Source: Pseudarthrobacter psychrotolerans
GTDB taxonomy: Bacteria; Actinomycetota; Actinomycetes; Actinomycetales; Micrococcaceae
NCBI RefSeq assembly: GCF_009911795.1
Contig: NZ_CP047898.1
Location: 1,488,001 to 1,552,000 of the forward strand
Length of the DNA stretch: 64,000 nt
Reading direction: 5' to 3'
The notes under the pieces are model-generated. The model made no database searches. It worked only from the letters and a program-made list of their open reading frames with translations, and was not told where the DNA came from. Of this stretch, positions 9,616 through 41,317 are shown piece by piece. The translations under genes and the position numbers were made by a program. The first letter of the stretch is position 1. Each line of letters opens with the position of its first letter.

Positions 9616-9668
9616 AATTCACCCGTCCTTTTCTAATCGGTTCTGGATGTTCGCTAGGTTCTGAAGGT

Positions 9669-20019: not shown

Positions 20020-20992
20020 TTACCGCCGGTGCAAGTCCACCTTAGCACCTTCGACGTCCACTGCCAGCTTCAACACGCGCCAGCCGATGCCCGGCGTGTT
20101 CGCCTCTGTAAAGGACTCAATAAACCCAAGCACCTCGGTGGCTTCGGCGTCGCCGTCGGCGAGAACCAGGACCGTAGGTCCGGCACCTGAAACCACAGCC
20201 GCGTGGCCCGCGTTGCGCAGTGCCCTGATGAGTGCCGCGCTGGGGCGCATCGCCTCGGCGCGGTAGCTCTGGTGAAGGTAATCCTCCGTGCCGGCGTGCA
20301 GAAACTCGGGCTTCTGAGTCAGCGCGTGGATCAGCAGGGCGGCGCGGCCGGAGTTCATGGCCGCGGCATGATGGCCCACAGACGCCGGCAGCAGGGCGCG
20401 CGCGGCCTCGGTGGACAATTCGAAATCGGGACAGCCACGATGGGAATCACAGAACCGGCCACGGTAGCGCACGTGCTGCTGTACCGGTCACTGTCCTGCC
20501 ATGACAGCGCCAGTCCGCCGAAAATCGCGGGCGCGACGTTGTCCGGGTGGCCTTCCATCTCGCTGGTCAACTGCAGGATCCAGTCCCGCCCGCGACGCGC
20601 CGCGTCGGGCACCATGGCGTTGGCAGCCGAGACGGCCGCCACCACGGCCGATGCCGATGATCCCAGACCGCGGCCATGGGGGTTGACGTTCGTCGCCGTG
20701 ATCCGAAGCCCGCCGTGCCGGTAACCCAGCCGGGAAAAGGCAGACTCCATCGCCCGGACCACCAGGTGGCTGGCGTCCCTCGGCAGCGTGTCCGCCCCTC
20801 GCCGCTGAGCTCAAAGACGAGCTCAGCGGATTCGAGGCTTTCCACCGTCAGGGTGTCGTGCAGGGCGAGGGCGAGGCCCAGGCTGTCGTAGCCCGGACCA
20901 AGGTTGGCACTGGTGGCCGGGACCCTGACGGTGACGCGCTGTCCTGCCTCGATAACGGGCAAGTCAACGGCGGTGGGCGAGGTGGTTTCCAA
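20020..20992 (-). CDS. thrB: Homoserine kinase, interrupted by two apparent -1 frameshifts
   Basis: A GHMP kinase of about 324 residues is split over three frames. The first part starts at TTG 20992 and has [18 protein letters not shown]. The middle holds the ATP-binding loop [15 protein letters not shown]. The last part ([16 protein letters not shown] to [12 protein letters not shown]) includes the [12 protein letters not shown] motif. The breaks are repaired by one G in the minus-strand run at 20795-20798 (giving [10 protein letters not shown]) and one C at 20428-20430 (giving VPDFELS). The enzyme phosphorylates homoserine for threonine synthesis. It starts 2 bp after thrC, so the operon is hom-thrC-thrB. 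Confidence 0.9.
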
Positions 20993-20994
20993 GG

Positions 20995-22100
20995 CTACTT
21001 TTCTTCCAGTCCCAGTTCAGCTGCGACGGTCACGACGTCGTTGGAGACCTTGACGGGCTGCACTTCGCTGCCGTCCTCCGTCCGGAGGGCCCACTGGGGT
21101 CCTTGAGGCCGTGACCGGTAACGGTGATGACGATGGTCTTGCCGCTGGGAACTTCACCGGCGGCATGCTTCTTGAGCAGGCCGGCCACACCGGCGGCGGA
21201 GCCGGGCTCCACAAAAACGCCTTCGCGGGCGGACAGCCAGCGGTGGGCATCCAGGATCTGCTCGTCAGTCACGGCGTCGATGAATCCGCCGGACTCGTCG
21301 CGGGCCGCGATGGCACCGTCCCAGGATGCCGGGTTGCCGATCCGGATGGCAGTGGCGATGGTGTCCGGCTCTGTGATGGGGTGCCCCGCCACGAACGGTG
21401 CCGCGCCGGCAGCCTGGAAGCCCCACATCTGGGGCGTTTTGGTGGACACGGCCGGCAAGGTTCCGGCTGTTTCCGATTCAAACGGCGCCGAGTACTCCTT
21501 GTAGCCCTTCCAGTAGGCGGTGATGTTGCCGGCGTTACCGACGGGCAGGACATGAATGTCCGGAGCATCGCCGAGCGAATCGACAATCTCAAACGCGCCC
21601 GTCTTCTGGCCCTGGATGCGTGCCGGGTTGACGGAGTTGACCAGGAAAACCGGGTAGGACTCCCCCAGCTTCCGTGCAATATCCAGGCAGTTATCAAAGT
21701 TGCCGTCCACCTGGAGCAGCGTGGCGCCATGCGCGATGGCCTGGCTCAGCTTGCCCATGGAGATCTTGCCTTCGGGGACCAGCACGGCGCATTTCAGTCC
21801 CGCTGCCGTGGCGTAGGCGGCAGCGGAGGCCGAGGTGTTGCCGGTGGACGCGCACACCACTGCCTTGGCACCGGACGCAACGGCGGCCGTCATGGCCATG
21901 GTCATACCGCGGTCCTTGAACGAGCCGGTGGGGTTCATCCCTTCGACCTTCAGATACACGGTGGAACCGGTGAGCTCGGAGAGCTTCTGCGCGTAGACCA
22001 GCGGAGTGCCGCCCTCGCCCAGCGTGATGACCCTGGTGGATTCCGTGACGGGCAGACGGTCAGCGTATTCGCGGATAACTCCGCGCCATTGGTGAGCCAC
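20995..22100 (-). CDS. thrC: Threonine synthase, with an apparent -1 frameshift near the C-terminus
   Basis: A PLP enzyme turning O-phosphohomoserine into threonine. It has the PLP lysine motif [15 protein letters not shown] and the glycine loop [12 protein letters not shown]. It starts with GTG at 22100, directly after the hom stop (TAAGTG). The frame as written ends DPSGPSGRR and continues into nonsense. Adding one C to the run of four (GGGG on the plus strand, 21096-21099) restores [14 protein letters not shown], ending GLEEK at TAG 20995, for about 368 residues. Only the last about 35 residues are affected, so a miscall is likely. Confidence 0.93.
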
Positions 22101-24920: not shown

Positions 24921-26570
24921 TTACATCCGTTCCGGCGCGGATACGCCCAGCAGGTCCAGACCGTTGGCCAGCACCTGGCTGGTGGCGTCGTTCAGCCACA
25001 GGCGGGTGCGGTTGACGTCGGTGACGGCTTCGTCGCCCTGCGGCGCAACGCGGCAGGCGTCGTACCAGCGGTGGTAGGCGCCGGCAATGACCTCGAGGTG
25101 GCGGGCCACGCGGTGGGGTTCGCGCAGTTCGGCGGCTTTGGCCACAATCGAGGGGTAGCTGCCCAGGTAGGAGAGCAGTTCGTTTTCCGTGGCGTGGTCC
25201 AGCAGTGCGGCGTCGAACGCGTTCCGGTCCACGCCTGCAGCCACGGCGTTGCGGGCCGTGCCGCGGGACCGGGCGTGGGCGTACTGGACATAGAACACCG
25301 GGTTCTCGTTGCTGTGCTTCTTCAGCAGGTCAGGATCCAGGGTGAGCGGGGAATCCGCCGGGAAGCGGGCCAGGGAATAACGCACTGCGTCCTTGCCAAG
25401 CCAGGAGATGAGGTCCTTGAGTTCGATGATGTTGCCCGCGCGCTTGGACAGCTTGGCGCCGTTGACCGACACCAACTGGCCGATCAGGACCTCGATGTTC
25501 ACCTCCGGGTCATCGCCGGCACAGGCAGCGATGGCCTTGAGGCGGTTGATGTAACCGTGGTGGTCCGCGCCCAGGAGGTAGATCTTTTCGGTAAAGCCGC
25601 GGTCTTTCTTGGAGAGGTAATACGCGGCGTCCGCGGCAAAGTAGGTGGGTTCACCGTTCGCGCGGATCATCACGCGGTCCTTGTCGTCCCCGAAGTCGGT
25701 GGTGCGCAACCAGACCGCACCGCCGTCGTCGAACACGTGGCCCTGCTCGCGAAGGCGGGCGACGGCACTCTCGATGGCGCCGGCGTCGTGCAGTTCCTGC
25801 TCCGAGAAGTAGACGTCAAAGGCAACGCCAAAGTCTGCGAGGGTGTCCTGGATGTCCTTCATCTGGGCCTTGTAGGCGGCGGCACGGATAACCGGCACTG
25901 CGGCGACCTCGGTGAGTTCACGGATGTCGGGGTGCTCGGTCAGGACGTCATGGCCGAGGTCGGCGATGTACTGGCCCGGGTAGCCGCCGTCCGGCACGGG
26001 ATGTCCGTGCAGCCGCGAGTAGACAGAGTTCGCGAACACGTTCATCTGCGAACCGGCGTCGTTGATGTAGTACTCGGCGGTGACCTCCGCGCCCGAAGCA
26101 CGCAGCACGCGGGCGATCGCATCGCCCAAGGCAGCCCAGCGGGTGTGGCCGATGTGCAGCGGACCGGTGGGGTTCGCCGACACAAATTCCATGTTCACCA
26201 CGTGGCCGGCGAGCGTGTTGGTGGTGCCGTAATCCCGTCCGGCTTCCACGATGGCCTTCGCCAGGGCGCCCGCTGCGGCCGCGTCCACGGTGATGTTCAG
26301 GAAGCCGGGGCCGGCGATGTCCACGGCAGAAACGCCGTCGATGGACTTCAGGCGGGCGCTCAGGATGGTGGCGAATTCGCGCGGGTTGGTGCCGGCCTGC
26401 TTGGACAGCTGGAGGGCGATGTTGGTGGCCCAGTCGCCGTGCTCCCGGTTCTTCGGTCGCTCCACGCGCACCTCATCAGGGACAGCTGATGCGGAAAGCG
26501 CGATTTCGCCAGCGGCGACGGCGTCTTTCAGGCAGGCGGATATGGCGAGGGAGAGTTCTTCGGGAGTCAC
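24921..26570 (-). CDS. argS: Arginyl-tRNA synthetase
   Basis: 549 residues, class I enzyme. The HIGH signature is present (NPTGPLHIGHTRWAALGD) and a KMSKS-like loop reads NGAKLSKRAGN. An N-terminal Arg-tRNA additional domain (about 1-110) and a C-terminal anticodon-binding helical domain (DALR type, ending LLGVSAPERM) are complete. It is the first gene of the leftward argS-lysA-hom-thrCB run. The 171-bp gap to the divergent FMN-binding lipoprotein gene should hold both promoters. Confidence 0.97.
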   Translation of the reverse strand: MTPEELSLAISACLKDAVAAGEIALSASAVPDEVRVERPKNREHGDWATNIALQLSKQAGTNPREFATILSARLKSIDGVSAVDIAGPGFLNITVDAAAAGALAKAIVEAGRDYGTTNTLAGHVVNMEFVSANPTGPLHIGHTRWAALGDAIARVLRASGAEVTAEYYINDAGSQMNVFANSVYSRLHGHPVPDGGYPGQYIADLGHDVLTEHPDIRELTEVAAVPVIRAAAYKAQMKDIQDTLADFGVAFDVYFSEQELHDAGAIESAVARLREQGHVFDDGGAVWLRTTDFGDDKDRVMIRANGEPTYFAADAAYYLSKKDRGFTEKIYLLGADHHGYINRLKAIAACAGDDPEVNIEVLIGQLVSVNGAKLSKRAGNIIELKDLISWLGKDAVRYSLARFPADSPLTLDPDLLKKHSNENPVFYVQYAHARSRGTARNAVAAGVDRNAFDAALLDHATENELLSYLGSYPSIVAKAAELREPHRVARHLEVIAGAYHRWYDACRVAPQGDEAVTDVNRTRLWLNDATSQVLANGLDLLGVSAPERM

Positions 26571-26741: not shown

Positions 26742-27215
26742 ATGAGACCGTCAGTCCGCAAGAGTGTCTTCGTCGGCATCACCGGCCTGTCCCTCGCTGG
26801 AACGGTCGCAGGCTGCGCGCCGTCGGCAACACAGGCCGCACCCGGTGCGACTTCCGGCAACACGTCAGGCGCCGTCACGGCCCCTTCGGGCACGGCATCA
26901 ACCCCGGCCAGCAGCGGTTCCCTCTATCAGGACGGCACCTACAGTGCCGACGGCACCTATGTTTCCCCCAATGGCACGGAGACCGTAGGGGTTGAGCTGA
27001 TGCTCGCCGCCGGCAAGGTCACGGCCGTGAACATCACCCAGCACCCCTCCAACCCGAACACGCGGAAATTCCAGGGCGAGTTCGCCGGCGGGATCGCGGC
27101 GCAGGTTGTGGGCAAAGGCATCGACGAACTCAACGTCTCCAAGGTGGCAGGGTCCTCGCTCACCAGCGGCGGTTTCAACCAGGCCCTGGACAAGATCAAG
27201 GCCGAGGCGCAGTAG
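26742..27215 (+). CDS. FMN-binding-domain lipoprotein
   Basis: 157 residues. A signal peptide with a lipobox (VAGC, Cys25) is followed by a Ser/Thr/Ala/Gly linker and an FMN_bind domain from about residue 60 (YQDGTYSADGTY, VGVELMLAAGKVTAVNIT). The flavinylation motif, usually SGAT-x-TS with FMN esterified to Thr, reads AGSS-L-TS at 136-142, so Ser139 sits at the acceptor place. The protein should be anchored on the outer face of the membrane and carry covalent FMN for one-electron transfer. The apbE gene starts 3 bp later and the RnfD/FNR gene follows, supporting a flavin relay. Its electron acceptor is unknown. Confidence 0.85.
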   Translation: MRPSVRKSVFVGITGLSLAGTVAGCAPSATQAAPGATSGNTSGAVTAPSGTASTPASSGSLYQDGTYSADGTYVSPNGTETVGVELMLAAGKVTAVNITQHPSNPNTRKFQGEFAGGIAAQVVGKGIDELNVSKVAGSSLTSGGFNQALDKIKAEAQ

Positions 27216-27218
27216 GCC

Positions 27219-28084
27219 GTGCCGGACCCGGAGGACTTCCGCTTCGACGGGATCGGTACCCGTTGGGAAATCTCCACGCCCCATCCGCTTCACGCCAGCG
27301 TCCGCGGCCGGCTCCTCGCCGTGGTGGAGCGGTACGACGGCGACTGGTCCCGGTTTAGGTCCGACTCGACAGTCAGTGCCATGGCACGCGAGCCCGGGCG
27401 GCATAAGCTGCCGGCGGAGGCGACGGACCTTGGCCGGCTGTACCGCTCGCTGTACAACATCACCGGCGGAGCGATGACCCCTTGATCGGCGCCAGCCTGG
27501 AGCGCCTCGGGTACGACGCCGCATATTCCCTGCGGCCTGCAGGGTCCGCGCTTCCGGCACCCCGCTGGGAGGACGTCCTGGCGTGGGAGGGCAATGTGCT
27601 GACTACTTCCGCTCCCCTGGTCCTGGACATCGGTGCCGCCGGCAAGGGGCAGCTGGTGGACCTTCTCGCTAGTGAGTTGCGCTCCTGCGGCGTGGACTCC
27701 TTCGTGATTGATGCCAGTGGCGACCTGCTTCACCGCGGCCCTGACCCGGTATCCGTGGCGTTGGAACACCCGTACGATCCGGCGAAGGCAATCGGGACCG
27801 TGCCGCTGGCCGGCCGCGCCTTGTGCGCGTCGGCTTCCAACCGACGGGCATGGGGTGACGGCCTGCACCATGTGCTCGATGGCACCACCGGGCTACCCGT
27901 CAGCACGGCGGTAGCCACGTGGACCATGGCGGAAAGCACTATGGTTGCTGATGCTCTGGCCACCGCCCTGTTCTTTGTCCCCGGCAGCGAGCTGGAACGG
28001 GCCTTCGATTTTTCCTGGCTGACAGTTTTTTCTGATGGAACTGCTGCCTATTCAGCCGGATTTGAAGGGACACTGTTTTTATGA
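27219..28084 (+). CDS. apbE: FAD:protein FMN transferase (ApbE), interrupted by an apparent -1 frameshift
   Basis: Two frames make one ApbE of about 288 residues. The first (GTG 27219, 88 codons) ends GGAMTP followed by TGA. The second resumes LIGASLERLGYDAAY. One extra C in the run of four at 27478-27481 gives GGAMTPLIGASL. Family motifs in the second part are VLDIGAAGKGQLVD, IDASGDLLHRG and a metal-site region HHVLDGTTGLPVS, where the common DPxTG has Gly for Pro. ApbE moves FMN from FAD onto Thr or Ser of exported proteins; the lipoprotein gene just upstream is the obvious client. No clear signal peptide is seen. The end overlaps the next gene by ATGA. Confidence 0.88.
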
Positions 28085-29619
28085 GCCCCGTTGATGCTCC
28101 CAAGACGACCGCCGTTTTCGCCGCCGGCCGGTTGGACACCCTGTTGGGAAAGTACACGATGTACCGGCTGATCCTCCTGGTCCTGGCAGCCCTTGCCGCG
28201 TACAGCCTCCTGCTGAATGCCCTTGGCTGGCTCACGTTCGGCATCCCGCAGATGCTCGTCCACCTGGCCCTGTGCCTTGGCTTGACTTACTTGTCCAACC
28301 GCGGGCTGGCTGCCCTTTTCCACGTCCGCCCGCATTCCGAGTCGTCGCTGATCACCGGCCTGCTGCTGTATTTCCTGTTCTGGCCCACCTTTATGCCCAT
28401 GGATTTGGCGGGCGTGGCCCTGGCCTGTGTGCTGGCCACCGCCTCGAAATACGCGTTGGCCTGGCGCGGCCGGCACATTTTCAACCCCGCCGCCGCCGGA
28501 GCGTTTGTGACCGGGCTGACCGGATTGAACGTCGCAACGTGGTGGGCGGCGACCCCCGCCATGCTCTGGCTACTGGTCCCCGGAGTCCTCCTGGTGCTCT
28601 ACCGGACGCGGAAGTTGCTCATGGCGGCCGTGTTCCTTGTGGTTGCCACATCAATTGTGAGCGCTGAGTTGCTGCATGCAGGGCTTAGCCCGGGCACCGC
28701 ACTCTGGCAGGCCCTGGCCCAGCGGCCGTTGCTGTTCTTCGTCGGCTTTATGCTGACGGAGCCCCTTACCCTCGCGCCGCGCCGATGGCAGCAGCTTGCG
28801 CTCGCAGCAGTGGTAGGTGGGGTCTTCGCGGTGCCGTACAACTTCGGCTTCATCGCCAACTCGCCCGAACTGGCCCTGCTGGTCGGCAACCTGCTGGCGT
28901 TTCTGGTGGGTCAGCGCGGCGGACTCAGGCTCCAGTTCACTGGCTCCCGTCCCCTGACGCCGAGCACCACGGAATTCTCGTTCGAACCGTCCCGGCCCGT
29001 CCGCTTTATGCCGGGACAGTACATGGAACTGGATCTGCCGCACGCAAAGTCTGACGGTAAAGGCCGACGCCGGGTGTTCAGTTTGACCAGTGCCCCCGGT
29101 TCGGAGACCGTGAAGTTTGGCGTCCGGACGGCGGAGCCCCTGTCCGCGGCGAAGAAAGTCCTGCTGGACCTGAAGCCTGGTGATGAAGTGGCTGCCACAG
29201 CCGTGGGCGGAGATTTTGTCCTGCCCCGCGATCCCCGGGCCGCCGTTCTCCTGATCGCCGCGGGCATCGGCATCACGCCCTATCTTGCGCATCTTTCTTC
29301 CGGAGCGGCCCAGGACCGTGACGTGGTTCTCCTGCTCCTGGCGCGCAATCCTGCGGAAATTGCCTACGCGGCCGAGCTGCAGGCGTCCGGGGCGCGCATC
29401 CTGGTACGCCTCGCGGATGGGTCCGTCCCGCCGTCGTTCGTCACCAACGCAGGGAACGGAGGCCACCTGGACGGGCCCGCATTGCTCGAGCTGGTCCCCG
29501 ACATTACCGACCGCGCTGTGTACATCTCCGGGTCGCCGGCGAGCGTCGCTTCGCTGCGCCGTGCAGCCCGGAAGGCCGGCGGGCGACGGGTGCACGTCGA
29601 CTCTTTTTCCGGGTACTGA
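28081..29619 (+). CDS. RnfD/NqrB-like membrane domain fused to a ferredoxin-NADP reductase-type domain
   Basis: 512 residues. Residues about 25-280 form some eight to ten membrane helices with the RnfD/NqrB hallmark GRHIFNPAAAGAF (130-142). A WAATPAM segment at 155-161 resembles the RnfD flavin site SGATPL, with Thr158 at the acceptor place. Residues about 285-512 are an FNR-type FAD/NAD(P) module: RFMPGQYMELDL (flavin), RRVFSLTSAP, and LLIAAGIGITPYLAHL for the nicotinamide. The layout suggests cytosolic NAD(P)H to FAD, then across the membrane through bound flavin to the FMN lipoprotein. The usual multi-subunit Rnf or Nqr genes are absent, so this is a compact stand-alone system. Confidence 0.85.
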   Translation: MSPVDAPKTTAVFAAGRLDTLLGKYTMYRLILLVLAALAAYSLLLNALGWLTFGIPQMLVHLALCLGLTYLSNRGLAALFHVRPHSESSLITGLLLYFLFWPTFMPMDLAGVALACVLATASKYALAWRGRHIFNPAAAGAFVTGLTGLNVATWWAATPAMLWLLVPGVLLVLYRTRKLLMAAVFLVVATSIVSAELLHAGLSPGTALWQALAQRPLLFFVGFMLTEPLTLAPRRWQQLALAAVVGGVFAVPYNFGFIANSPELALLVGNLLAFLVGQRGGLRLQFTGSRPLTPSTTEFSFEPSRPVRFMPGQYMELDLPHAKSDGKGRRRVFSLTSAPGSETVKFGVRTAEPLSAAKKVLLDLKPGDEVAATAVGGDFVLPRDPRAAVLLIAAGIGITPYLAHLSSGAAQDRDVVLLLLARNPAEIAYAAELQASGARILVRLADGSVPPSFVTNAGNGGHLDGPALLELVPDITDRAVYISGSPASVASLRRAARKAGGRRVHVDSFSGY

Positions 29620-29697: not shown

Positions 29698-29770
29698 GCC
29701 CTCGTAGCTCAGGGGATAGAGCGTCTGCCTCCGGAGCAGAAGGTCGTTGGTTCGATTCCAATCGAGGGCA
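29698..29770 (+). tRNA. tRNA-Arg (anticodon CCG)
   Basis: A full cloverleaf is visible: acceptor GCCCTCG/CGAGGGC, D stem GCTC/GAGC, anticodon stem TCTGC/GCAGA with loop CTCCGGA, so the anticodon CCG is at 29731-29733. The T arm is GTTGG-TTCGATT-CCAAT. The discriminator is A, and a CA follows, so CCA is not fully encoded. It reads CGG codons. Confidence 0.97.
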
Positions 29771-29776
29771 CAAATG

Positions 29777-29963: not shown

Positions 29964-30027
29964 CGCCTGTCCCGCGGTGCCCTATCAGACTCCGCGGCTG
30001 GAGCCGATGCCTCAAGCACAGCCAAAG

Positions 30028-31034
30028 CTACGGCGGCGTGGTGCTCGATCCCCCCGTTGTCTGCGGCGCTGGCCAGTGGGGTGGTTCCCAGTCGGGGTGT
30101 TCGCTGGCGTAGTGCCGTCCGGTGGTTGAGATCCAACCGGGTGGTTCGTTCTTGGTGGCGGTGGTGGGTGTCCAGGCTGTGGTGTGTCTGAGTCGGTGAT
30201 GGCGGGGCACGGCTGACCGAGATTGCTGATCCCAGTACTGCCTCCGTGGGCCCAGGCGAGGAGGTGGTCCGCTTCGTTGTCCAGGGAGTGGTTGCTGCAG
30301 CCGGGGAACGGGCACTTCCCGTCCCGCAACCGTAGCCATCGGCGTTGGGCTTTCGTGAGCCGGTAGCTGGTCCGCCCGATCTCCAACGGCGCACCGTCCC
30401 GCGGGTCGATCAGGACACGGTGGAAGGACTCCGCACCTTCCGCGATCAGTTGGCGGGCCATGGAGGGCGGGATCGGCCCGTACCCATCGAGCATGGACGG
30501 TTCATCCGTGACGCCCAACAGGGCTAACACCGGGACCGTGATGAGGACCTGCGCCCGCGGCGACGGAACACCAGTTCCGGCAACAGCGATGTTGTTGGTG
30601 AGGAGCCAGGTCGTGACGGTGTCGGCGCGGAGCTGGGTGAGGGTCCGGTCCTCATGAGGCCCCTGGAGCGCTCTCGCGGCGGTCGTGGCCCGGTCCCAGA
30701 TCCCGGCCGCCTGATCGGCGGGGAGGTACGCGCTGAGCCAGGCCATGCCGTCGCGGTCCGGCGCATACTCCAGGCGTCGATCCGCGGCGCTCTTGATGTG
30801 GCGCTTTTCGATGCTGACCGGGTGGTGGCGTTCCCGCCACGTCCTGGCCTTGTGCCGGAACCTCCCGGGGATGAGCTCACCGGCCGGGCCTCCACGTGCC
30901 GGGTTCGGCGCGTCGGGGTCCAGGAAATGCGCTTCGAGCGCCGTTTCATCGACCATGATCCTCGCGTGCTGCCACGAAATCCTCCCGGCCCGCAGCGCCG
31001 ACAACGTCAAGGCAGCCATCCGGGCCTCCAGCAT
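30028..31034 (-). pseudogene. DUF222/HNH endonuclease-domain gene, 5'-truncated and frameshifted
   Basis: The DUF222 part is recognisable from ALRAGRISWQHARIMVDET through YLPADQAAGIWDRATTAARAL. The HNH core reads GKCPFPGCSNHSLDNEADHLLAWAHGGSTGISNLGQ. Three faults are visible. The usual about 100 or more N-terminal residues are missing, the frame beginning abruptly as MLEARMAALTLSAL. A few residues seem lost between VDET and ALEAHFLDP. A missing C (GGGG on the plus strand at 30204-30207) shifts CPRHHRLRHTTAWTP into another frame, losing the last HNH histidines. Repaired, the C-terminus ends GGSSTTPP at 30028. These genes occur in many copies in Arthrobacter; their function is not settled. Confidence 0.8.
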
Positions 31035-31248: not shown

Positions 31249-32307
31249 ATGCACGTTCCAGCCACATTCTGTTCCATCATTCCGCCTTACATGCTTCGGC
31301 GGTTGGCCCGCCTGGACGAGCCGCGGTTTTCCGCCGCCGCGCGGGCGGCCAAGGAAGCACTGAGCCACGTCCGGTCAGTCCAGTCAGCCCGTACCCTGCC
31401 GGCTCCGGCCGCTCCCCCGTCAATGCGTGATGTCCGCCCGGGCCCGCCCAACAGGAGCATCTACGATGCCGGCGGTTCCGAGAACCTGCCCGGCAAGCTG
31501 GTGCGCAAGCAAGGTGAACCGGCTTCCGGCGATCAGTCGGCTGATGAGGCGTACGACGGCCTTGGGCACACGCATCGCCTGTTTGCCGACATCTTCGGCC
31601 GTAACTCCATCGACGGCCAAGGCCTTCCGCTCGCTGCTACTGTGCACTTTGGAAAGCTCTACGACAATGCTTTCTGGGATGGCCGGCAGATGGTCTTCGG
31701 CGACGGTGACGGCGAAGTTTTCGAGCGTTTCACGCGGTCGCTGAGCGTCATCGGGCACGAACTCACGCACGGTGTCACCCAGCACTCGGCGGGGCTGGCT
31801 TACCGCAACCAAGCAGGTGCCCTCAACGAATCCATGTCCGACGTTTTCGGCGCGCTCGTGGAACAGTACCTGAACAGCCAGTCCGTAACCGAAGCCAGTT
31901 GGCTCATCGGCGAAGGACTCTTCACGCCTCAGGTTGAAGGATCGGCTCTCCGCTCGCTGAAGGCCCCGGGCACGGCGTACGACGACGACGTGCTGGGAAA
32001 GGATCCCCAGCCAGATTCGATGGACTCGTACATGCGGACCAGCGCGGACAATGGCGGCGTCCATATCAACTCCGGCATCCCCAACCGGGCCTTCTACCTC
32101 ACGGCGGAGTCCCTCGGCGGCAACGCCTGGGAGGCACCGGGACGGATCTGGTACGACACACTCACCGGCGGCTCATTGCCTGCCACCGCCACCTTCCGCG
32201 CTTTCGCGAGGGCGACGGCTGCATCCGCCGTCGAATTGTTCGGCACCGATTCGCCGGAGCATGACGCCGTGCGGCAGGCGTGGGAAACTGTGAAGGTCAA
32301 GCTTTAG
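31249..32307 (+). CDS. M4-family metallopeptidase, protealysin type
   Basis: 352 residues. The zinc site is HELTH (His170, Glu171, His174) with the third ligand Glu194 in GALNESMSD. The catalytic histidine region is GGVHINSGIPNRAFYL. The N-terminus has the short protealysin-type propeptide marker PPYML (12-16) and no signal peptide, unlike secreted thermolysins with long propeptides. Protealysin-like enzymes act in or leave the cell by unusual routes and are autoprocessed. ATG 31249 follows GAGGGG. The probable inhibitor gene starts 60 bp after the stop. Substrate is unknown. Confidence 0.92.
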   Translation: MHVPATFCSIIPPYMLRRLARLDEPRFSAAARAAKEALSHVRSVQSARTLPAPAAPPSMRDVRPGPPNRSIYDAGGSENLPGKLVRKQGEPASGDQSADEAYDGLGHTHRLFADIFGRNSIDGQGLPLAATVHFGKLYDNAFWDGRQMVFGDGDGEVFERFTRSLSVIGHELTHGVTQHSAGLAYRNQAGALNESMSDVFGALVEQYLNSQSVTEASWLIGEGLFTPQVEGSALRSLKAPGTAYDDDVLGKDPQPDSMDSYMRTSADNGGVHINSGIPNRAFYLTAESLGGNAWEAPGRIWYDTLTGGSLPATATFRAFARATAASAVELFGTDSPEHDAVRQAWETVKVKL

Positions 32308-32740: not shown

Positions 32741-33709
32741 CTACCCTGCCGTGACCAACTGTCCCCGGAATGCCCGACGATAGGACTGCGGGCTCGTGTC
32801 CAACACCTTAGCAAAGTGATGCCGGAGCAGGACCGGGTGGCCAAAGCCCGACTCCCGGGCAACTTCGTCGATGTTGAGGTCAGTGGATTCCAACAGCTCC
32901 TGCGCCCGGAGGACCCGCTGCGAGTTCAGCCAGGCAGCAGGTGTGGCCCCGGTTTCGGACCGGAAGCGGCGGGCAAAGGTCCTGGCTGACATGTGCACGC
33001 GTGACGCCAACTCAACGACGGTGTGCTCCTGCTCCAGGTTCTGCACCATCCAGCGCAGCAGCTCTTCCATCGGCGCCGATCCACAAGCAGGCATGGGCCG
33101 GTCGATGAACTGAGCCTGGCCGCCGTCGCGGTGGGGCGGCACCACCATGTCCCGCGCAATGGCAGCGGCCACGTTGGCGCCCAGCTCAACGCGCACCAGA
33201 TGGAGGCAGGCATCAATCCCTGCCGCGGTGCCCGCACTGGTGATCAGGTTGCCGTCCTGCACGTAGAGCACGTTTTCATCGACCTGCACTTCCGGGTACC
33301 GGCTTGCGAGCTCATGGGAATAGTGCCAATGCGTGGTGCAACGCCGCCCGTTCAGGAGACCGGCGCGGGCCAAGGCGAAGGCTCCGGAACAAATGGACAT
33401 CACCCAGGCGCCCCGGGCGTGCGCGGCGCGCAATGCCTCCAGCACGGATTCCGGAACGTCCCCATCGCGTCCGAACGGCGTCATGATCACCAGGTCCGCA
33501 TCCGCCGTGGCATCCAGACCCAGGGGGACGTTCATGGAGAGGCCTGATTTCAATCTGACGTTCCCGGGTTCTGGCGTGCAGGCCCGAAAGTCGAACGCGG
33601 GAACATTACTGCCGCGTCCCGACCTGTCAATGCCAAACACTTCGCACGCCGTGGCGAACTCGAAGATCGAGAAGTTGGGAACCACGATGACTGCCACTGA
33701 TTTCAGCAT
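32741..33709 (-). CDS. GlxA-type transcriptional regulator (DJ-1/PfpI domain plus AraC HTH)
   Basis: 322 residues. Residues 1-190 form a DJ-1/PfpI-like domain (SVAVIVVPNFSIFEFATACEVFG, WVMSICSGAFALARAGLL with Cys at the nucleophile elbow, GNLITSAGTAAGIDACLHL). The last about 100 residues are an AraC/XylS double helix-turn-helix (ELASRVHMSARTFARRF, then DEVARESGFGHPVLLRHHF). The ATG at 33709 has GGAGG six bases upstream. Such proteins respond to amino acids or amine-type ligands in characterised cases, but no ligand can be named here. It is convergent with the emfourin-like gene, and its target is not evident. Confidence 0.9.
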   Translation of the reverse strand: MLKSVAVIVVPNFSIFEFATACEVFGIDRSGRGSNVPAFDFRACTPEPGNVRLKSGLSMNVPLGLDATADADLVIMTPFGRDGDVPESVLEALRAAHARGAWVMSICSGAFALARAGLLNGRRCTTHWHYSHELASRYPEVQVDENVLYVQDGNLITSAGTAAGIDACLHLVRVELGANVAAAIARDMVVPPHRDGGQAQFIDRPMPACGSAPMEELLRWMVQNLEQEHTVVELASRVHMSARTFARRFRSETGATPAAWLNSQRVLRAQELLESTDLNIDEVARESGFGHPVLLRHHFAKVLDTSPQSYRRAFRGQLVTAG

Positions 33710-33790
33710 GCCTCCATTATGGCAGAAATTCGAGCTTTTTGGGCATTTCTGCCACTGTTTCTTGGGTATGCACCGGAGCAGCATTGAGTC

Positions 33791-33958: not shown

Positions 33959-34008
33959 CCCGCAGGCATGCCTCAATCCGCCATCACTAGCCCATCAGAT
34001 AAGACAAA

Positions 34009-34036
34009 AGGACCCGGCTCAAAAGAGCCGGGTCCT
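34009..34036. terminator. Bidirectional intrinsic terminator
   Basis: Perfect 12-bp stem AGGACCCGGCTC / GAGCCGGGTCCT with an AAAA loop. An A-rich stretch on the left and CTTGTG on the right flank it. It sits between the converging 55-residue gene and catA. Confidence 0.8.
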
Positions 34037-34051
34037 CTTGTGTGCTGGTGG

Positions 34052-34915
34052 TTAGGCGCGGACTGCATCCAGAACGAAGTCATAGGTGACCTCGTTGCCT
34101 GCCCCGTTGCCGCGCTCGGTGGGGCTCAGAACCAGTTCCGGCTTGACGGCCGAAGCGATGTCATCGGAAAGGTGCTGGTCGCCGTCGAAGTAGAGCTGGG
34201 CGGTCAGGAGCTGATGGCCGGGTGCCGACACCTTCAGGTGCAGGTGCGCTGGGCGCCAGGCGTGCCAGCCGGCCGCAGCAATCAGCTTGCCGCAGGCACC
34301 GTCGGTGGGGATCTGATACGGGGCCGGCTGCACGGTGTTCAGCGCAAAGTTGCCTTCGGCGTCGGCCGCAACGGTCCCGCGCAGGTTCCACTCGGGCAGT
34401 CCAGGGGCGAACTGAGAGTAGAAGCCATTGTCGTCAGCGTGCCAGATTTCCACCTTGGCTCCGGCGAGCGGGGTACCGTCCACACCACGGATCTGGCCCT
34501 GGAACAGCAGCGGCGTGCCGCCTTCATCCTCGCGCATCGGCAGGGTTGCCGGCGTGTCAAATTCCGGCGCGCCCGGGATGTAGTAAGGGCCTTCGATGGT
34601 GCCCTTATTTCCCTCGCGGTCCTCCGTGGAAACTTCCTCCACCACGTGCTCCACCCAGACATCCATGAACAACGGCCATTCGCCGTCTTCACCCACGTTG
34701 ATCAGCCAGGCTTTGAGGGCGTTGAACTCGTCGTAGGTCACCTTATGCTTGCGGATGGCGTCGTAGACCGCGCCGAGGACTTCGTTGGCCAGGAGGGATA
34801 CGCGCTCCTTGGGAACCTCAACGGTGGCCGTTTTGCCGCTTTCGCGGAAGCGCTCCGTGGCCGCGCTTCCGGACTCTGCTGCCTTAGCATCAAATTCGGT
34901 CAGGTTGTTTGTCAT
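34052..34915 (-). CDS. catA: Catechol 1,2-dioxygenase
   Basis: 287 residues, intradiol dioxygenase opening catechol to cis,cis-muconate. The four Fe(III) ligands are visible as Tyr112 (GPYYIPGAP), Tyr200 (PAPYQIPTDG), and His224 and His226 (WRPAHLHLKV). The N-terminal helical dimerisation domain of about 100 residues is present. It lies 65 bp downstream of catB, last in the lysR-catB-catA operon. The catC gene usually found with them is absent. Confidence 0.96.
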   Translation of the reverse strand: MTNNLTEFDAKAAESGSAATERFRESGKTATVEVPKERVSLLANEVLGAVYDAIRKHKVTYDEFNALKAWLINVGEDGEWPLFMDVWVEHVVEEVSTEDREGNKGTIEGPYYIPGAPEFDTPATLPMREDEGGTPLLFQGQIRGVDGTPLAGAKVEIWHADDNGFYSQFAPGLPEWNLRGTVAADAEGNFALNTVQPAPYQIPTDGACGKLIAAAGWHAWRPAHLHLKVSAPGHQLLTAQLYFDGDQHLSDDIASAVKPELVLSPTERGNGAGNEVTYDFVLDAVRA

Positions 34916-34980
34916 AGCAGACTCGCTTTCGTGGTCCGGCGCCGGCTGCAGTGCCGGCGCTTGGTTGGGGTAGAGGGGTT

Positions 34981-36090
34981 TCAGTTGCCTTGGTCGAGAC
35001 GGTATTTCGCCAGCTTCCCGGCGTCGATGTCGATGCCGATGCCGGGGACCTGGCGGACGGACAGGCGGCCATCCACGATTTCGAGGGGTTCGGTCAGAAG
35101 GTCATCGCTCATGTCGAGGAAGTTGGATAGTTCCCCCGCGCGCCTCGTGGTGGATTCGAACGCGGCACCGAAGGTGACAGTGCACAGGGTGCCGATCTGG
35201 CCGTCAATCTGATTCCCCATCACCACCTCGGCGCCCAGGCCGTCGCACTGGAACAGCACGCGCTGGGAATGGGAGAAACCGGTGCGGGCCGTCTTGATGC
35301 TGACGGCGTTCGCCGCGCCGCTGAGCAGTTCGCGGGTTACTTCGCCGGGCTTCGTGGCGCTTTCGTCGGCAACAAACGGGACATTGCAGTGGTCAACAAG
35401 CCACTTGCGGCCCAGAACGTCATCCGCCGGGCACAGTTCTTCGGCGAGCGTTAGGTCAAGGTCCGCCATGGCGTTCAGCGCACGGAGGGATTCCGACGGC
35501 GTCCAGCCGCGGTTGCCGTCGATGTACAGTTCGATGTCCCCGCCCATCTCCTCGCGGAGGGCCCGGCAAACATCGACGTCGAGTCCGAACGGCCGGCGGC
35601 CAACTTTCACCTTGAAAGTAGTAATCCCGTAGGTACTGCGCATCCGCTCGGCCTCGGCCACGATCTTCGCCGGTTCGGCGAAGCCGAGCATGTGGCTGAC
35701 GCGCATGCTGTCGGTGAAGCCGCCGAGCAGCGCAGTGACGGGCTGCCCAAGGGTTTTACCGATGACGTCCCAGACAGCCATATCCACTGCCGACTTCGCG
35801 GTGGGATTGCCCACCGTCCTGTTCATGATGGCGTGCATCGCTTCGCGGTCCAGGATGGACATCCCGACGAGCTGGGGCGCGAACAGTGTCTTAATGACGG
35901 CCACAATGGATTCTTGCGTTTCACCATAGGTGAAGGGCCGCGCCGGCGCCTCGGCCACTCCCACAATCCCGTCATCGCTGGTGACGCGGACCATCACGTG
36001 GAGGGCGGTGTGCACCTCTCCGCTGGCGAACCGGAGGGGCTTCACGTAAGGAATGGCGAACGGAATCGCCTCGATGGACGTAATTTTCAC
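34981..36090 (-). CDS. catB: Muconate cycloisomerase
   Basis: 369 residues of the enolase superfamily, turning cis,cis-muconate into muconolactone. The catalytic KxK is in TFKVKVGRRPFG (near 168). Metal ligands are in YIDGNRGW, LAEELCPADD and VADESATKPG, and the second base Lys is in SIKTARTGFS. ATG 36090 overlaps the regulator stop by 4 bases (ATGA). With catA it forms the first two steps of the ortho-cleavage branch. The next enzyme, muconolactone isomerase, is not in the window. Confidence 0.94.
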   Translation of the reverse strand: MKITSIEAIPFAIPYVKPLRFASGEVHTALHVMVRVTSDDGIVGVAEAPARPFTYGETQESIVAVIKTLFAPQLVGMSILDREAMHAIMNRTVGNPTAKSAVDMAVWDVIGKTLGQPVTALLGGFTDSMRVSHMLGFAEPAKIVAEAERMRSTYGITTFKVKVGRRPFGLDVDVCRALREEMGGDIELYIDGNRGWTPSESLRALNAMADLDLTLAEELCPADDVLGRKWLVDHCNVPFVADESATKPGEVTRELLSGAANAVSIKTARTGFSHSQRVLFQCDGLGAEVVMGNQIDGQIGTLCTVTFGAAFESTTRRAGELSNFLDMSDDLLTEPLEIVDGRLSVRQVPGIGIDIDAGKLAKYRLDQGN

Positions 36091-36998
36091 TGCAGGCTCC
36101 CGGAGTGGATCGAATCAAGGAAGATGTTGTTGTCCTCGAGCATGCCGAGGAATGAGGCGACCACTGGCGAATCCGCGGTGCGGCTCCAAGCCAGCGCCAG
36201 CTCGACGTCGTCCGCTCCTGTCACCGCCCGGTACTGGACGCCTGCGAGCGCGATGCCACGGACGGATTCAGGGAGGATGGCGACGCCAAGGCCGGCCGCA
36301 ACCAGGGAAAGCTGCGTGGACGTCTTGGCCGATTCGTGTGCCACACGGGGGTAGTAGCCTGCTGCCCGGCAAGCGCGGACCACCGCATCGTGGACCACCG
36401 ACTGACCGGACGGGTACATGATGAAGTCCTCCGCACGGAGTTCGCCTACCGTCAGGCTCTCGGCAGCTAAGAGGCGGTGCCCCTCCGGCAAGGCCACAAC
36501 GAAAGGTTCGCGCGCGACGGGACGCATTTCGAGCGACGCATCGCGGACCGGCGGCCGCAGCACGCCGACGTCGAGTTCGCCGGAAACCAGTGCCAGTTCG
36601 ATGGCTGGCGTCAGCAGTTCCGTGCGGATATCCAGCACCACGTCCGGAAGCTGTTCCTTGACTAGCCGCGCCAGGATGGGCAGCTGGGTGTACGACGCCG
36701 TCCCCGTCAGTCCGATGCGCAATGTTCCGGCCTTGCCGTCCGCAAACCGTCGCGCCCGGCGGCCGGCCTCATCAACGCTGCGGAGAATGTGCTGGGCATC
36801 CACCAGGAAGGACTCGCCCGCAGGTGTCAGTTTTACGCTCCTTGTGGTGCGGGCAAAGAGCTCGACACCAAGCTCGGCCTCCAGATGCCGAATCTGCTGG
36901 GACAAGGGCGGCTGGGCCATTTGCAGCCGCTCGGCCGCCTGCCCGAAGTGGCAGGTTTCGGCAACCACAACGAAGTAGCGCAGGTGACGCAGTTCCAT
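36087..36998 (-). CDS. LysR-type regulator of the cat/ben locus
   Basis: 303 residues. The N-terminal winged HTH is typical (ELRHLRYFVVVAETCHFGQAAERLQMAQPPLSQQIRHLE), and the effector domain begins near 90 (GTLRIGLTGTASY). ATG 36998 is chosen; a 30-residue Arg-rich extension upstream is rejected. The same beginning is shared by CatR, BenM and CatM, which bind muconate and/or benzoate. It leads the leftward catBA operon and is divergent from benA, with LysR-like dyads in the gap. It is the first candidate for muconate-dependent activation. Confidence 0.9.
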   Translation of the reverse strand: MELRHLRYFVVVAETCHFGQAAERLQMAQPPLSQQIRHLEAELGVELFARTTRSVKLTPAGESFLVDAQHILRSVDEAGRRARRFADGKAGTLRIGLTGTASYTQLPILARLVKEQLPDVVLDIRTELLTPAIELALVSGELDVGVLRPPVRDASLEMRPVAREPFVVALPEGHRLLAAESLTVGELRAEDFIMYPSGQSVVHDAVVRACRAAGYYPRVAHESAKTSTQLSLVAAGLGVAILPESVRGIALAGVQYRAVTGADDVELALAWSRTADSPVVASFLGMLEDNNIFLDSIHSGSLQ

Positions 36999-37040
36999 GC
37001 TCGGGGTGCTCCTTCGTGGTGTTCGGGTTCGTGTTTGCCG

Positions 37041-37064
37041 TGCCCTGCGTGGTGCCCTGCGTGG
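37041..37064. repeat. 12-bp perfect tandem repeat
   Basis: Two adjacent copies of TGCCCTGCGTGG (37041-37052, 37053-37064), 43 bp upstream of the LysR start. Confidence 0.8.
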
Positions 37065-37126
37065 CGGGCAGTGTGTGCTGGCTAACATTTACGGGCTGTT
37101 GGTTCACCAGCGTAAGCCTCAATTTA

Positions 37127-37141
37127 GTATTCAACAAATAC
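37127..37141. promoter_or_regulatory. Candidate LysR-type operator 1
   Basis: Perfect dyad GTATT-N5-AATAC, which contains a T-N11-A core as expected for LysR-type regulators. It lies in the lysR/benA intergenic region, about 215 bp before benA. Confidence 0.5.
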
Positions 37142-37155
37142 CCAATTTCGTGACT

Positions 37156-37176
37156 TTCAGACGTAAAACGTCTGAA
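37156..37176. promoter_or_regulatory. Candidate LysR-type operator 2
   Basis: Perfect 8-bp inverted repeat TTCAGACG-TAAAA-CGTCTGAA with a T-N11-A-type layout, centred 25-30 bp (between two and three helical turns) from operator 1. The pair may be recognition and activation sites. Confidence 0.55.
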
Positions 37177-37182
37177 TATGCA

Positions 37183-37210
37183 CCTAGTCGACCTTAGGCA
37201 AATACCTAGT
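37183..37210. promoter_or_regulatory. CCTAG-type dyad and direct repeats
   Basis: CCTA-N8-TAGG at 37183-37198, with ACCTAGT copied at 37182-37188 and 37204-37210, 22 bp (two helical turns) apart. This may be a site for a second regulator such as the LuxR-type BenR. Confidence 0.35.
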
Positions 37211-37356
37211 GTGACCGGCACCACGCCACTGGCAGAGTTGGCTGCATTCAGTTTGACCGTCCGTTCGTTCGGCGGTCCGCCCGGGAACACAACCGGGTAT
37301 CCGGGCACTGCAGCCCGGCAAACGGGCGACGCAGCCCGATACCGATAGGAGCCAAC

Positions 37357-38724
37357 ATGACAGAGACGCTGGCGGGCATCCAGGCCCACCTTGACCAGGC
37401 CCTTGTGGAGGACCACGAGAATGGCGTTTTCCGCGCCAAGCGGAGCATCTTCACGGACGAAGGCCTGTTCGAGCTGGAGATGAAGCACATCTTCGAAGGC
37501 AACTGGGTGTACCTGGCCCATGACAGCCAGGTCCCGAACGTGGGCGACTACTTCACCACCTACATCGGCCGCCAGCCGATCATCATCTCCCGTGACAAGC
37601 AGGGCGGACTGAACGCCCTCATCAACGCGTGCAGCCACCGCGGCGCCATGCTGTGCCGCCGCAAGACAGACAACCGCACCACCTTTACCTGCCCCTTCCA
37701 CGGCTGGACCTTCAACAACACCGGCAAACTGCTTAAGGTCAAGGATCCCCGCGATGCCGGCTACCCGGAACAGTTCAACAAAGAGGGCTCACACGACCTC
37801 ACCAAGGTGGCCAGGTTCGAGAGCTACCGGGGCTTCCTGTTCGGCAGCATCAACCCGGACGTCAAACCGCTGGAAGAACACCTGGGTGAGTCCACCAAGA
37901 TCATCGACATGATCGTGGACCAGTCCCCCGATGGCCTGGAGGTACTGCGCGGCGCGTCCACCTACACCTACGACGGCAACTGGAAGCTGCAGGCCGAAAA
38001 CGGCGCCGACGGCTACCACGTGTCCGCGACGCACTGGAACTACGCCGCCACCACCGCCCGCCGCACCACGGGCGAGTCCGCCAACGAAACCAAGAACATG
38101 GACGCCGGCGGCTGGGCCAAACAGAAGGGCGGCTACTACTCCTTCGACCACGGCCACCTGCTGCTCTGGACCGAATGGCTGGATCCGTCCAACCGCCCGC
38201 TGTTCGACCGCCGTGACGAGCTCGTGGAGAAGTACGGCGAGGCCAAGGCGGACTGGATGATCAATATCTCCCGCAACCTCTGCCTGTACCCGAATGTTTA
38301 TCTGATGGACCAGTTCGGCTCGCAGATCCGCCACTTCCGCCCCATCTCCGTGGACAAGACCGAAGTGACCATCTACTGCATCGCGCCCAAAGGCGAGTCC
38401 GATGAGAACCGCGCCAACCGCATCCGCCAGTACGAGGACTTCTTCAACGCCTCGGGCATGGCCACTCCGGATGACCTGGAGGAGTTCCGCTCCTGCCAGA
38501 AGACGTACATGGCCACCGCAGCGCCGTGGAACGACCTCAGCCGCGGCGTGACCCACCAGATCCAGGGGCCGGACGCCAACGCCGACCTCATCGGACTCAA
38601 GCCGATCTCCAGCGGCGCCCGGACTGAAGACGAAGGCCTCTACCCGATCCAGCACGGCTACTGGGTGGACACCATGCGCAAGGCGGCAACCGCCGAAGCA
38701 GCAGACGCTGCAGCCCGGAACTAG
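37357..38724 (+). CDS. benA: Benzoate 1,2-dioxygenase, large (alpha) subunit
   Basis: 455 residues of a Rieske non-heme iron oxygenase. The [2Fe-2S] ligands are Cys92-x-His94 and Cys112-x2-His115 ([17 protein letters not shown]). The mononuclear iron site is in [16 protein letters not shown] (bridging Asp, two His), with its third carboxylate nearer the C-terminus. The enzyme adds O2 to benzoate to give the cis-diol with electrons from BenC. ATG 37357 follows ATAGGAG. It is the first gene of benABCDK-benR, divergent from the cat operon. The last about 15 residues are Ala-rich. Confidence 0.96.
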
Positions 38725-38750
38725 TCCGGCACGAGACCGAGGAGAATCCC

Positions 38751-39305
38751 ATGACCCAGACCACCGACGTCGCAACACCGGGCGCTGCCAAAGCTGCTGC
38801 AGGAGCAGCCACCGTCCCCGCCACACTCGAAGAAATCCGCTCGTTCCTCTACCGCGAAGCACGGTTCCTGGACGACCGCGAGTTTGACCGCTGGCTTGAC
38901 TGCTACCACCCCGAAGCAGAGTTCTGGATGCCTGCCTGGGCCGACGACGACGAGCTCACCAGCGACCCGCAGCGCGAAATTTCGCTGATCTACTACGCAA
39001 ACCGTGGCGGCCTCGAGGACCGTGTGTTCCGTATTAAGACGGACCGCTCCAGCGCCACCAGCCTCCCCGAACCGCGGACCGGCCACAACATCACCAATGT
39101 TGAGGTCATCGGCTGGCGCGGCGGGCAGGTGGACATCCGCTTCAACTGGCACACGCTGTACTACCGCTACCAGACCATCGATCCGTACTTCGGCACCTCG
39201 TTCTACACGATCGATTACGCCGGCACGCAGCCCGTCATCACGAAGAAGAAGGTCGTCCTGAAGAACGACTACATCCACCACATCGTGGACATCTACCACA
39301 TCTGA
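38751..39305 (+). CDS. benB: Benzoate 1,2-dioxygenase, small (beta) subunit
   Basis: 184 residues. After an Ala-rich start (about 1-24) it shows the ring-hydroxylating dioxygenase beta fold (EEIRSFLYREARFLDDREFDRW, DCYHPEAEFWMPAW). The beta subunit is structural in the alpha3beta3 oxygenase. It begins 26 bp after benA with an AGGAG five to eight bases before the ATG, and ends 28 bp before benC. Confidence 0.95.
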   Translation: MTQTTDVATPGAAKAAAGAATVPATLEEIRSFLYREARFLDDREFDRWLDCYHPEAEFWMPAWADDDELTSDPQREISLIYYANRGGLEDRVFRIKTDRSSATSLPEPRTGHNITNVEVIGWRGGQVDIRFNWHTLYYRYQTIDPYFGTSFYTIDYAGTQPVITKKKVVLKNDYIHHIVDIYHI

Positions 39306-39333
39306 TCTTCCGACCGATTCGAATCGAGTTTCC

Positions 39334-40386
39334 ATGAGTTACCAGATTGCCCTCAGCTTTGAGGATGGCGTCACCCGGTTTGTCACCGCGAACAAGTACG
39401 AGACCGTTGCTGACGCAGCCTACAAAAACCGCATCAACATCCCTTTCGATTGCCGCGACGGCGCCTGCGGCACCTGCAAGGCCTTCTGCGAGTCGGGCAA
39501 GTACGACGGCGGCGATTACATTGACGAGGCCCTGACCGAGGACGAAGCAGAGAAGGGCTTTTGCCTCCCCTGCCAGATGGTCCCCGAGACCGACCTTGTG
39601 CTCCAGATTGCCGGTACCTCCGAGATGGCCAAGGTGGGCGCGACCACCTTCGAGGCCACCGTCAAGGAGCTGAGCTGGTTCGCCGACAACACCGCGGCGC
39701 TGACCCTGACCGTGGAGAACCGCGGCGACCTGAACTTCCTGCCCGGCCAGTACATGAACTTCGCGGTCCCCGGCACCGATGCCGTGCGGTCCTACTCGTT
39801 CAGCAGTGGCCCCGCAGCGGACGAACTGCGCTTCCTCATCCGCACGGCACCGGACGGCGCCATGACCACCTACCTCAAGGAACGCGCCGCCGTCGGCGAT
39901 GTGCTCCCGCTGACCGGCCCCATGGGCAGCTTCTTCCTCCGCGACATCAAACGGCCTGCCCTGATGCTGGCCGGCGGCACGGGCATCGCGCCGCTCCTGT
40001 CCATGCTGGACAAGATCGCCAACGGCCTGGCGGAAGCTCCCGCGTTCCCGGTGCACCTGGTCTACGGGGTCACCTTCGACAAGGACCTCGTGGAGCTGGA
40101 CAAGCTGCAGCAGTACGCGGCGGCCATCGATAACTTCACCTTTGACTACTGTGTGGCCGACAAGGAAAGTTCCGCCCCCAACAAGGGGTACGTGACCCAG
40201 TACATCACGGCCGGGCAACTGAACGACGGCGACGTGGACGTTTACCTTTGCGGCCCGCCCGCCATGGTGGACGCCGTCCGCAAGTACTGGGATATCCAGG
40301 GCATCACGCCCACGAATTTCTACTACGAGCGGTTCGCGGTGGGAAGTACGACGGCGGTTCCCGCACTCGCCGGGGCCGGCAGTTGA
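39334..40386 (+). CDS. benC: Benzoate 1,2-dioxygenase electron-transfer component (ferredoxin-reductase)
   Basis: 350 residues. An N-terminal plant-type [2Fe-2S] domain has ligands Cys40, Cys45, Cys48 (FDCRDGACGTCKAF) and Cys80 (FCLPCQM). The FAD domain (LPGQYMNFAVPG, VRSYSFSSGP) and the NAD domain (LMLAGGTGIAPLLSML) follow. It passes electrons from NADH to BenA. The stop overlaps the benD start in TTGA, so the two are coupled. All key residues are present. Confidence 0.96.
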   Translation: MSYQIALSFEDGVTRFVTANKYETVADAAYKNRINIPFDCRDGACGTCKAFCESGKYDGGDYIDEALTEDEAEKGFCLPCQMVPETDLVLQIAGTSEMAKVGATTFEATVKELSWFADNTAALTLTVENRGDLNFLPGQYMNFAVPGTDAVRSYSFSSGPAADELRFLIRTAPDGAMTTYLKERAAVGDVLPLTGPMGSFFLRDIKRPALMLAGGTGIAPLLSMLDKIANGLAEAPAFPVHLVYGVTFDKDLVELDKLQQYAAAIDNFTFDYCVADKESSAPNKGYVTQYITAGQLNDGDVDVYLCGPPAMVDAVRKYWDIQGITPTNFYYERFAVGSTTAVPALAGAGS

Positions 40387-41246: not shown

Positions 41247-41317
41247 AGGAACGAAGCACCACCCACGAGCAGTACCCACCGGCCGCAACGACGCGGCCCA
41301 AGGCAATGGAGCCCGCA

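Follow-up and report, generated by a model that had tools for sequence, protein, structure and literature searches.

We consider it probable that three adjacent genes of Pseudarthrobacter psychrotolerans form an NQR/RNF-like flavinylation operon that moves electrons from NAD(P)H to the FMN of a surface lipoprotein, and that the break in the frame of its apbE gene is an error of the assembly. The operon encodes a lipoprotein, predicted to be the flavinylation client, the flavin transferase ApbE, and a fusion of an RnfD-like membrane domain with a reductase domain. It was analysed within a window of 64,000 nucleotides, this being the whole stretch of DNA examined, taken from an assembly of 5.17 Mb in 3 contigs. 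Positions below are those of the window.

26742..27215, plus strand: FMN_bind-type lipoprotein, 157 aa, predicted flavinylation client (ORF; lipobox VAGC in the sequence)
27138..27167, plus strand: predicted flavin attachment segment SKVAGSSLTS, residues 133-142 of the lipoprotein (motif conservation)
27219..27485, plus strand: apbE 5' piece, 88 aa, GTG start, premature TGA (ORF; ApbE-domain match)
27482..28084, plus strand: apbE 3' piece, 200 aa, in another frame, holding most of the ApbE domain (PF02424, E 1.3e-26)
28081..29619, plus strand: fusion protein, 512 aa (ORF; domain homologies)
24921..26570, minus strand: argS, divergent upstream neighbour, context and not part of the operon (Pfam)
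29698..29771, plus strand: tRNA-Arg(ccg), downstream neighbour, context (present at the locus)

The genes are tightly packed. The apbE region starts at 27219, leaving a gap of 3 bp after the lipoprotein stop, and the ATG of the fusion overlaps the apbE stop as ATGA; the ORFs thus confirm the positions and junctions given in an earlier note on this DNA. Conservation of the triad exceeds chance. The fusion gene was found in 30 of 36 congeners (G001-G036; one of the six that lack it, G027, has an assembly of just 68% completeness), and the order lipoprotein-apbE-fusion is kept in 79 of 80 loci of the Arthrobacter group (Arthrobacter, Pseudarthrobacter and Paenarthrobacter), the other being L064, whose contig begins inside apbE. 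Upstream, argS lies on the minus strand in 78/80 of these loci, within 400 bp in 77 of the 78 measured. Downstream, tRNA-Arg follows within 1.2 kb in 79/80 (it is further off in L111) and within 400 bp in 77/80, the measured end of the operon being shortened by frame changes in L065 (strain Hiyo4) and L125. This constant gene order between argS and tRNA-Arg suggests that the operon has been inherited vertically without changing its site. The operon can also be lost, as indicated by a relic in the congener G009, where lipoprotein residues 5-29 stand beside fusion residues 418-512 between the same two neighbours. Among the matches listed for 22 other genomes of the order, none was better than 9.9e-19 and only the reductase part was covered. 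Across the phylum, the membrane domain was found at E <= 1e-5 in 15 of 396 genomes, seven of them below 1e-40 when the source genome and one congener are counted, and the triad recurs in loci L140, L141, L143 and L144. Other ORFs, which looked unrelated, stand between client and apbE in L139.

Further information came from the fusion protein. As judged from sequence comparison and a structure model, an RnfD/NqrB-like membrane domain takes up about residues 20-277 of its 512, and an NqrF-like FAD/NAD(P)H-binding reductase domain about residues 280-512. The window protein has no PF03116 match in Pfam, and its PF00175 match scores 18.8 bits, the cut-off being 22 bits. The previous description of an RnfD-like/FNR fusion is nevertheless backed by its relatives: the same-genus ortholog G002 has an RnfD/NqrB match above the Pfam cut-off, and 72 of 85 aligned homologs have an RnfD/NqrB Pfam match. 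Moreover, the membrane domain matches RnfD in a profile comparison, and sequence and structure matches place the reductase domain in the NqrF/FNR type. The model built from the 85-sequence alignment has a mean pLDDT of 92 and matches RnfD and NqrF, although the rmsd to RnfD is high (6.6) and the match extends beyond the membrane domain; RnfD came up only in a second structure comparison, no RnfD or NqrB chain being among the best 50 Foldseek matches listed. This model replaced a first one from a congeners-only alignment, in which the membrane part had come out poorly (mean pLDDT 67.4). The frame of the fusion gene contains a stop in L122 and in G352/L144.

The fusion had also been described as combining the NAD(P)H dehydrogenase part with the membrane flavin carrier. 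Its two-domain core fits this description, but the segment that would carry a covalent flavin is missing. In the profile alignment the fusion has a gap where the RnfD reference row reads DAVTGAT, its flavinylation segment. There is no [ST]GA[ST] in the window fusion, and the 4 of 85 aligned fusions that contain this pattern have it no earlier than residue 359, within the reductase domain. Motif absence is an imperfect test, since only 13 of 18 RnfD/NqrB comparison rows match a relaxed flavinylation pattern. Given the missing segment, we do not expect the fusion to be a covalent membrane flavin carrier.

The covalent flavin would instead be carried by the lipoprotein. Its lipobox cysteine, Cys25, is invariant in the ortholog alignment, so the lipoprotein part of the name "FMN-binding lipoprotein" stands, while the FMN_bind (PF04205) match of the window protein remains below the Pfam cut-off (E 0.009; 17.1 bits vs 22 bits). 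All 29 members of the alignment, the window protein included, match FMN_bind at E <= 0.01, the best at 1.3e-4, these being E values and not the Pfam cut-off. The FMN acceptor is likely Ser139, in the segment [A/S]GSSLTS, which is present in 29/29 members. The canonical D-x-x-[S/T]-G-A-[S/T], given as the flavinylation consensus in passages of PMC12052999, occurs in 0/29. As the client motif departs from that consensus at three positions, flavinylation is not assured: [A/S]GSSLTS could be a degenerate motif and the lipoprotein unflavinylated, with its flavin held non-covalently or absent, and the low FMN_bind score would agree with this. We find it improbable, because GSSLTS is invariant in the 29 alignment members and in 79/79 Arthrobacter-group loci holding the lipoprotein gene, and GSSLT recurs near or beside apbE in four divergent loci (L139, L140, L141 and L144). 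The same source reports in part that loss of the Asp has a minor effect and that changes of the Gly or Ala leave flavinylation at about half (PMC12052999), which makes FMN attachment to Ser139 plausible. The more distant clients of L142 and L143 carry the canonical TGAT or SGAT, and that of L143 passes the FMN_bind cut-off; the client of L140 has no FMN_bind match at E <= 0.01.

While the client carries a lipoprotein signal, ApbE shows no export signal that can be recognised. In the window, the space from the previous in-frame stop, that of the lipoprotein, to the ApbE domain motif GIGT is just 11 residues, which leaves no room for a signal peptide. Among 28 relatives this space is at most 15 residues in 16; in 70 of the 80 Arthrobacter-group loci it is at most 15 in 33, 16-60 in 28, above 60 in 7 and unreadable in 2. 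Export signals were judged by the 15-residue mean hydropathy around GIGT, whose top value within 30 residues on either side was 1.15 in the 28 relatives; the client signals all reached 1.50 or more. The source genome has one other ApbE only, in an MsrQ-like cluster. Its ORF, read from the first possible start, has no hydrophobic stretch (0.99), and the N-terminus of its client reaches 1.9. Some congeners have a further, better-scoring ApbE; since in nine of them no hydrophobic stretch was found in the 60 residues that precede the domain match, the client signals are the sole positive control for the hydropathy measure. According to passages of PMC12052999, export of ApbE by a signal peptide or lipid anchor is typical, not universal.

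A signal-less ApbE beside an exported client raises the question of where flavinylation happens. It is tempting to propose that FMN is attached to the client inside the cell, before export, because both ApbE proteins of the genome lack a recognisable signal and both clients have a hydrophobic N-terminal one, and because a short linear motif is all that ApbE requires, the one here being close to the client C-terminus and having an unusual GSS acceptor. It would be the flavin-loaded polypeptide that crosses the membrane, so that no FAD export would be needed. We put this forward tentatively, as somewhat doubtful; if true, it would be a topologically reversed route to extracytosolic flavoproteins in actinobacteria. 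Export of a folded, pre-flavinylated client by Tat was also considered and has no support as a general route, since, set against the well-known Tat consensus, the client signals mostly have R-K (R-R in two congeners, L009 and L010; K-K in the distant L142 and L143).

The apbE region lies where the earlier note had placed it, but in two frames, a split which that note did not mention. The frame breaks near 27482; a TGA at 27483-27485 closes the first 88 codons, and 200 codons follow in another frame. The halves match ApbE separately, with E values of 2.6e-4 (below the Pfam cut-off) and 1.3e-26. In 29/29 loci of whole-genome relatives apbE is in one frame across this point, and it is a single frame over the whole gene in 27/29; L009 (G026) has a separate interruption, further in, and L020 (G030) has frame changes in all three operon genes. 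In the set of 80 Arthrobacter-group loci, which overlaps with these relatives, apbE could be scored in 79 (all save L064), and at least 85% of the gene is in one open frame in 78; in the exception, L125 (Hiyo8), all three operon genes are broken. A protein collection contains a full-length ApbE of 288 aa that is 98% identical to the 3' piece of the window. These counts bear on the idea that the break is functional, the stop of the first piece overlapping a TTG start of the second (TTGA), such that a restart or a frame shift would give a two-piece or regulated ApbE. With all 29 relatives in one frame at the junction and 78/79 scorable loci with a one-frame gene, this seems to us scarcely credible, and we rejected a programmed frameshift or two-piece ApbE as the main reading.

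The break is likely a one-base assembly error and not biology. What makes this the likeliest explanation is that neighbouring genes have three more one-base shortfalls: by comparison with four relatives, the PALP-family (thrC-like) gene of the window is one base short near its 3' end, and the GHMP-kinase (thrB-like) gene is one base short at two places. Both stand beside a homoserine dehydrogenase gene; the families were computed with Pfam, and the genes are presumably thrC and thrB, as the decarboxylase mentioned below is presumably lysA. Assembly errors of one base, within or next to runs of G/C, would account for the apbE, thrC-like and thrB-like breaks together. If the frameshift were real, the operon would be decaying, and the lipoprotein would either carry no flavin or depend on the second ApbE (MsrQ-like cluster, G000:C1, about 3637 kb) acting in trans. 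The break is present in the assembly, and there are signs of loss within the genus: the G009 relic, the absence of a full fusion gene from 6/36 congeners (the 68% complete G027 among them) and the interrupted apbE of G026. We regard decay as unlikely all the same, since a read error accounts for the similar damage to the thrC-like and thrB-like genes better than several independent lesions, and the genes for the lipoprotein and the fusion each have a well-conserved frame that is open throughout. Besides these two, homoserine dehydrogenase, the lysA-like decarboxylase, argS, an M4 metallopeptidase (31249-32307) and an AraC-type regulator (32741-33784) are in one frame by comparison with relatives. 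A DUF222/HNH gene near 30.2 kb may also be frame-affected, less clearly. The apbE break calls for caution, as a reader of the raw sequence may take the locus for intact or for dead, according to whether the probable error of the assembly is spotted.

With an assembly error as the preferred reading of the break, and with the textbook topology of RnfD/NqrB as background, we infer the flavin loading, the membrane topology and the donor, direction and acceptor of the electrons as follows. The cytosolic C-terminal domain of the fusion would oxidise NAD(P)H through FAD, and electrons would pass through the RnfD-like membrane domain by way of a flavin bound there non-covalently. They would be received at the outer face of the membrane by the FMN that ApbE is predicted to attach to a serine near the lipoprotein C-terminus, and from there an extracytosolic acceptor might be reduced, such as Fe(III), a quinone or another small oxidant. 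The flow would be one-way and probably not ion-pumping.

No acceptor gene linked to the operon was found in the Arthrobacter-group loci, where argS and tRNA-Arg close on either side, mostly within 400 bp, and so leave little room for an extra gene. As far as linked genes go, this argues against a pathway for redox defence or ferric reduction that has its own terminal enzyme, which we hold to be very unlikely even though passages of PMC8238504 report an iron transporter in six NQR/RNF-like clusters. The redox-defence role once suggested for the operon is unsupported, and we found no evidence for or against either a respiratory or a redox-defence role. A link to iron through a Bifidobacterium screen was set aside, because the part of PMC5449479 that bears on it concerns an apbE mutant and another FMN-binding protein, and not the architecture seen here.

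The architecture itself has a published counterpart. Meheust et al. (2021, PMC8238504) describe, in the relevant passages, an NQR/RNF-like system made of flavinylation clusters with a PF03116-PF00175 fusion, 127 of them, primarily from Actinobacteria and the candidate phyla radiation. That electrons run in one direction only, from NAD(P)H to an FMN domain outside the cytosol, is a proposal found in passages of that paper and of Huang et al. (2024, PMC11334425), and the latter present the membrane domain as lacking the NqrB/RnfD flavinylation site. Our operon is alike in combining an FMN_bind-type subunit, ApbE and a fusion with an NqrB/RnfD-like N-terminal and a PF00175-type C-terminal part, in having a membrane domain without a covalent flavin site, and in clustering ApbE with a predicted extracytosolic FMN_bind-type protein (lipobox present). 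It is unlike the published system in that the window membrane domain is too divergent for PF03116, the client has [A/S]GSS, and ApbE has no recognisable export signal. The testable features of the NQR/RNF-like system are thus present, with two departures in the partner proteins, namely the client motif and the ApbE signal.

Rnf and Na+-NQR share with the operon an RnfD/NqrB-like membrane domain, an NqrF-type reductase domain and an FMN_bind-type client. The operon differs from them in the fusion of the two domains and in the membrane domain without a covalent FMN site. That the fusion replaces such a multi-subunit complex, as had been claimed, is not established; searches of the source genome found nothing for PF02508 (Rnf-Nqr) at E <= 1 or for PF03116 at E <= 10. 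The MsrQ-like system of the same genome (L037) consists of a Ferric_reduct + NAD_binding_1 protein, an FMN_bind protein with SGATVTS, and ApbE; it differs from the operon by its PF01794 membrane domain, which is not RnfD-like, and by its canonical client motif. The cytoplasmic ApbE of Klebsiella also has no signal peptide according to passages of PMC12052999, but its client is a soluble fumarate reductase, modified by the cytoplasmic enzyme, whereas the client of the operon has a lipoprotein signal.

In summary, none of the papers listed by our literature searches dealt with this Arthrobacter-group operon, yet the pathway is not the poorly described one it had been taken for, its architecture having been published as NQR/RNF-like (in passages of PMC8238504 and PMC11334425). 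The operon is NQR/RNF-like, so divergent that it stands at the margin of what the published searches would select, and not a new kind of system. It extends that architecture to a group of soil bacteria of which many isolates have been sequenced, and as its smallest form, two working proteins plus ApbE, it would permit a direct test of one-way NQR/RNF-like transfer.

Comparison with four relatives revealed that two neighbouring genes of the window are each short of single bases.

20023-21100, minus strand: thrB-like (GHMP-kinase) gene and 3' end of the thrC-like (PALP-family) gene

The thrB-like gene lacks one base at each of two places, and the thrC-like gene lacks one base at one place in its 3' end. 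Judged from the sequence comparison, these shortfalls point to one-base errors in the assembly of this genome. A further change of frame was observed near 30205, relative to one relative, in the DUF222/HNH-type gene listed next.

30012-31034, minus strand: DUF222/HNH-type protein

Since members of this family vary, the case is less certain than the two above.

Larger differences were also observed. Several relatives align to about 33.95 kb of the window and resume only from about 45.9 kb, so that the stretch of about 34000-45900 looks like an insertion in our strain. In L111, one of the Arthrobacter-group loci, 2.7 kb separate the fusion gene from the tRNA-Arg downstream of it, where ~110 bp is usual, and thus DNA is inserted between them. 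A congener without the full fusion gene (G009) keeps a relic of the operon, in which the start of the lipoprotein gene adjoins the end of the fusion gene.

L042 (G009) 9329-9663: operon relic, flanked by argS and tRNA-Arg

Some congeners encode an additional ApbE (L172-L181, strong match), which our genome does not have; no signal-like stretch was found upstream of it in the nine checked. Outside the window, our genome contains a second flavinylation cluster.

L037 5261-8092 (G000:C1, about 3637-3640 kb): flavinylation cluster of the MsrQ-like type

It is composed of a Ferric_reduct/NAD_binding_1 protein, an ApbE without recognisable signal and an FMN_bind protein carrying SGATVTS.
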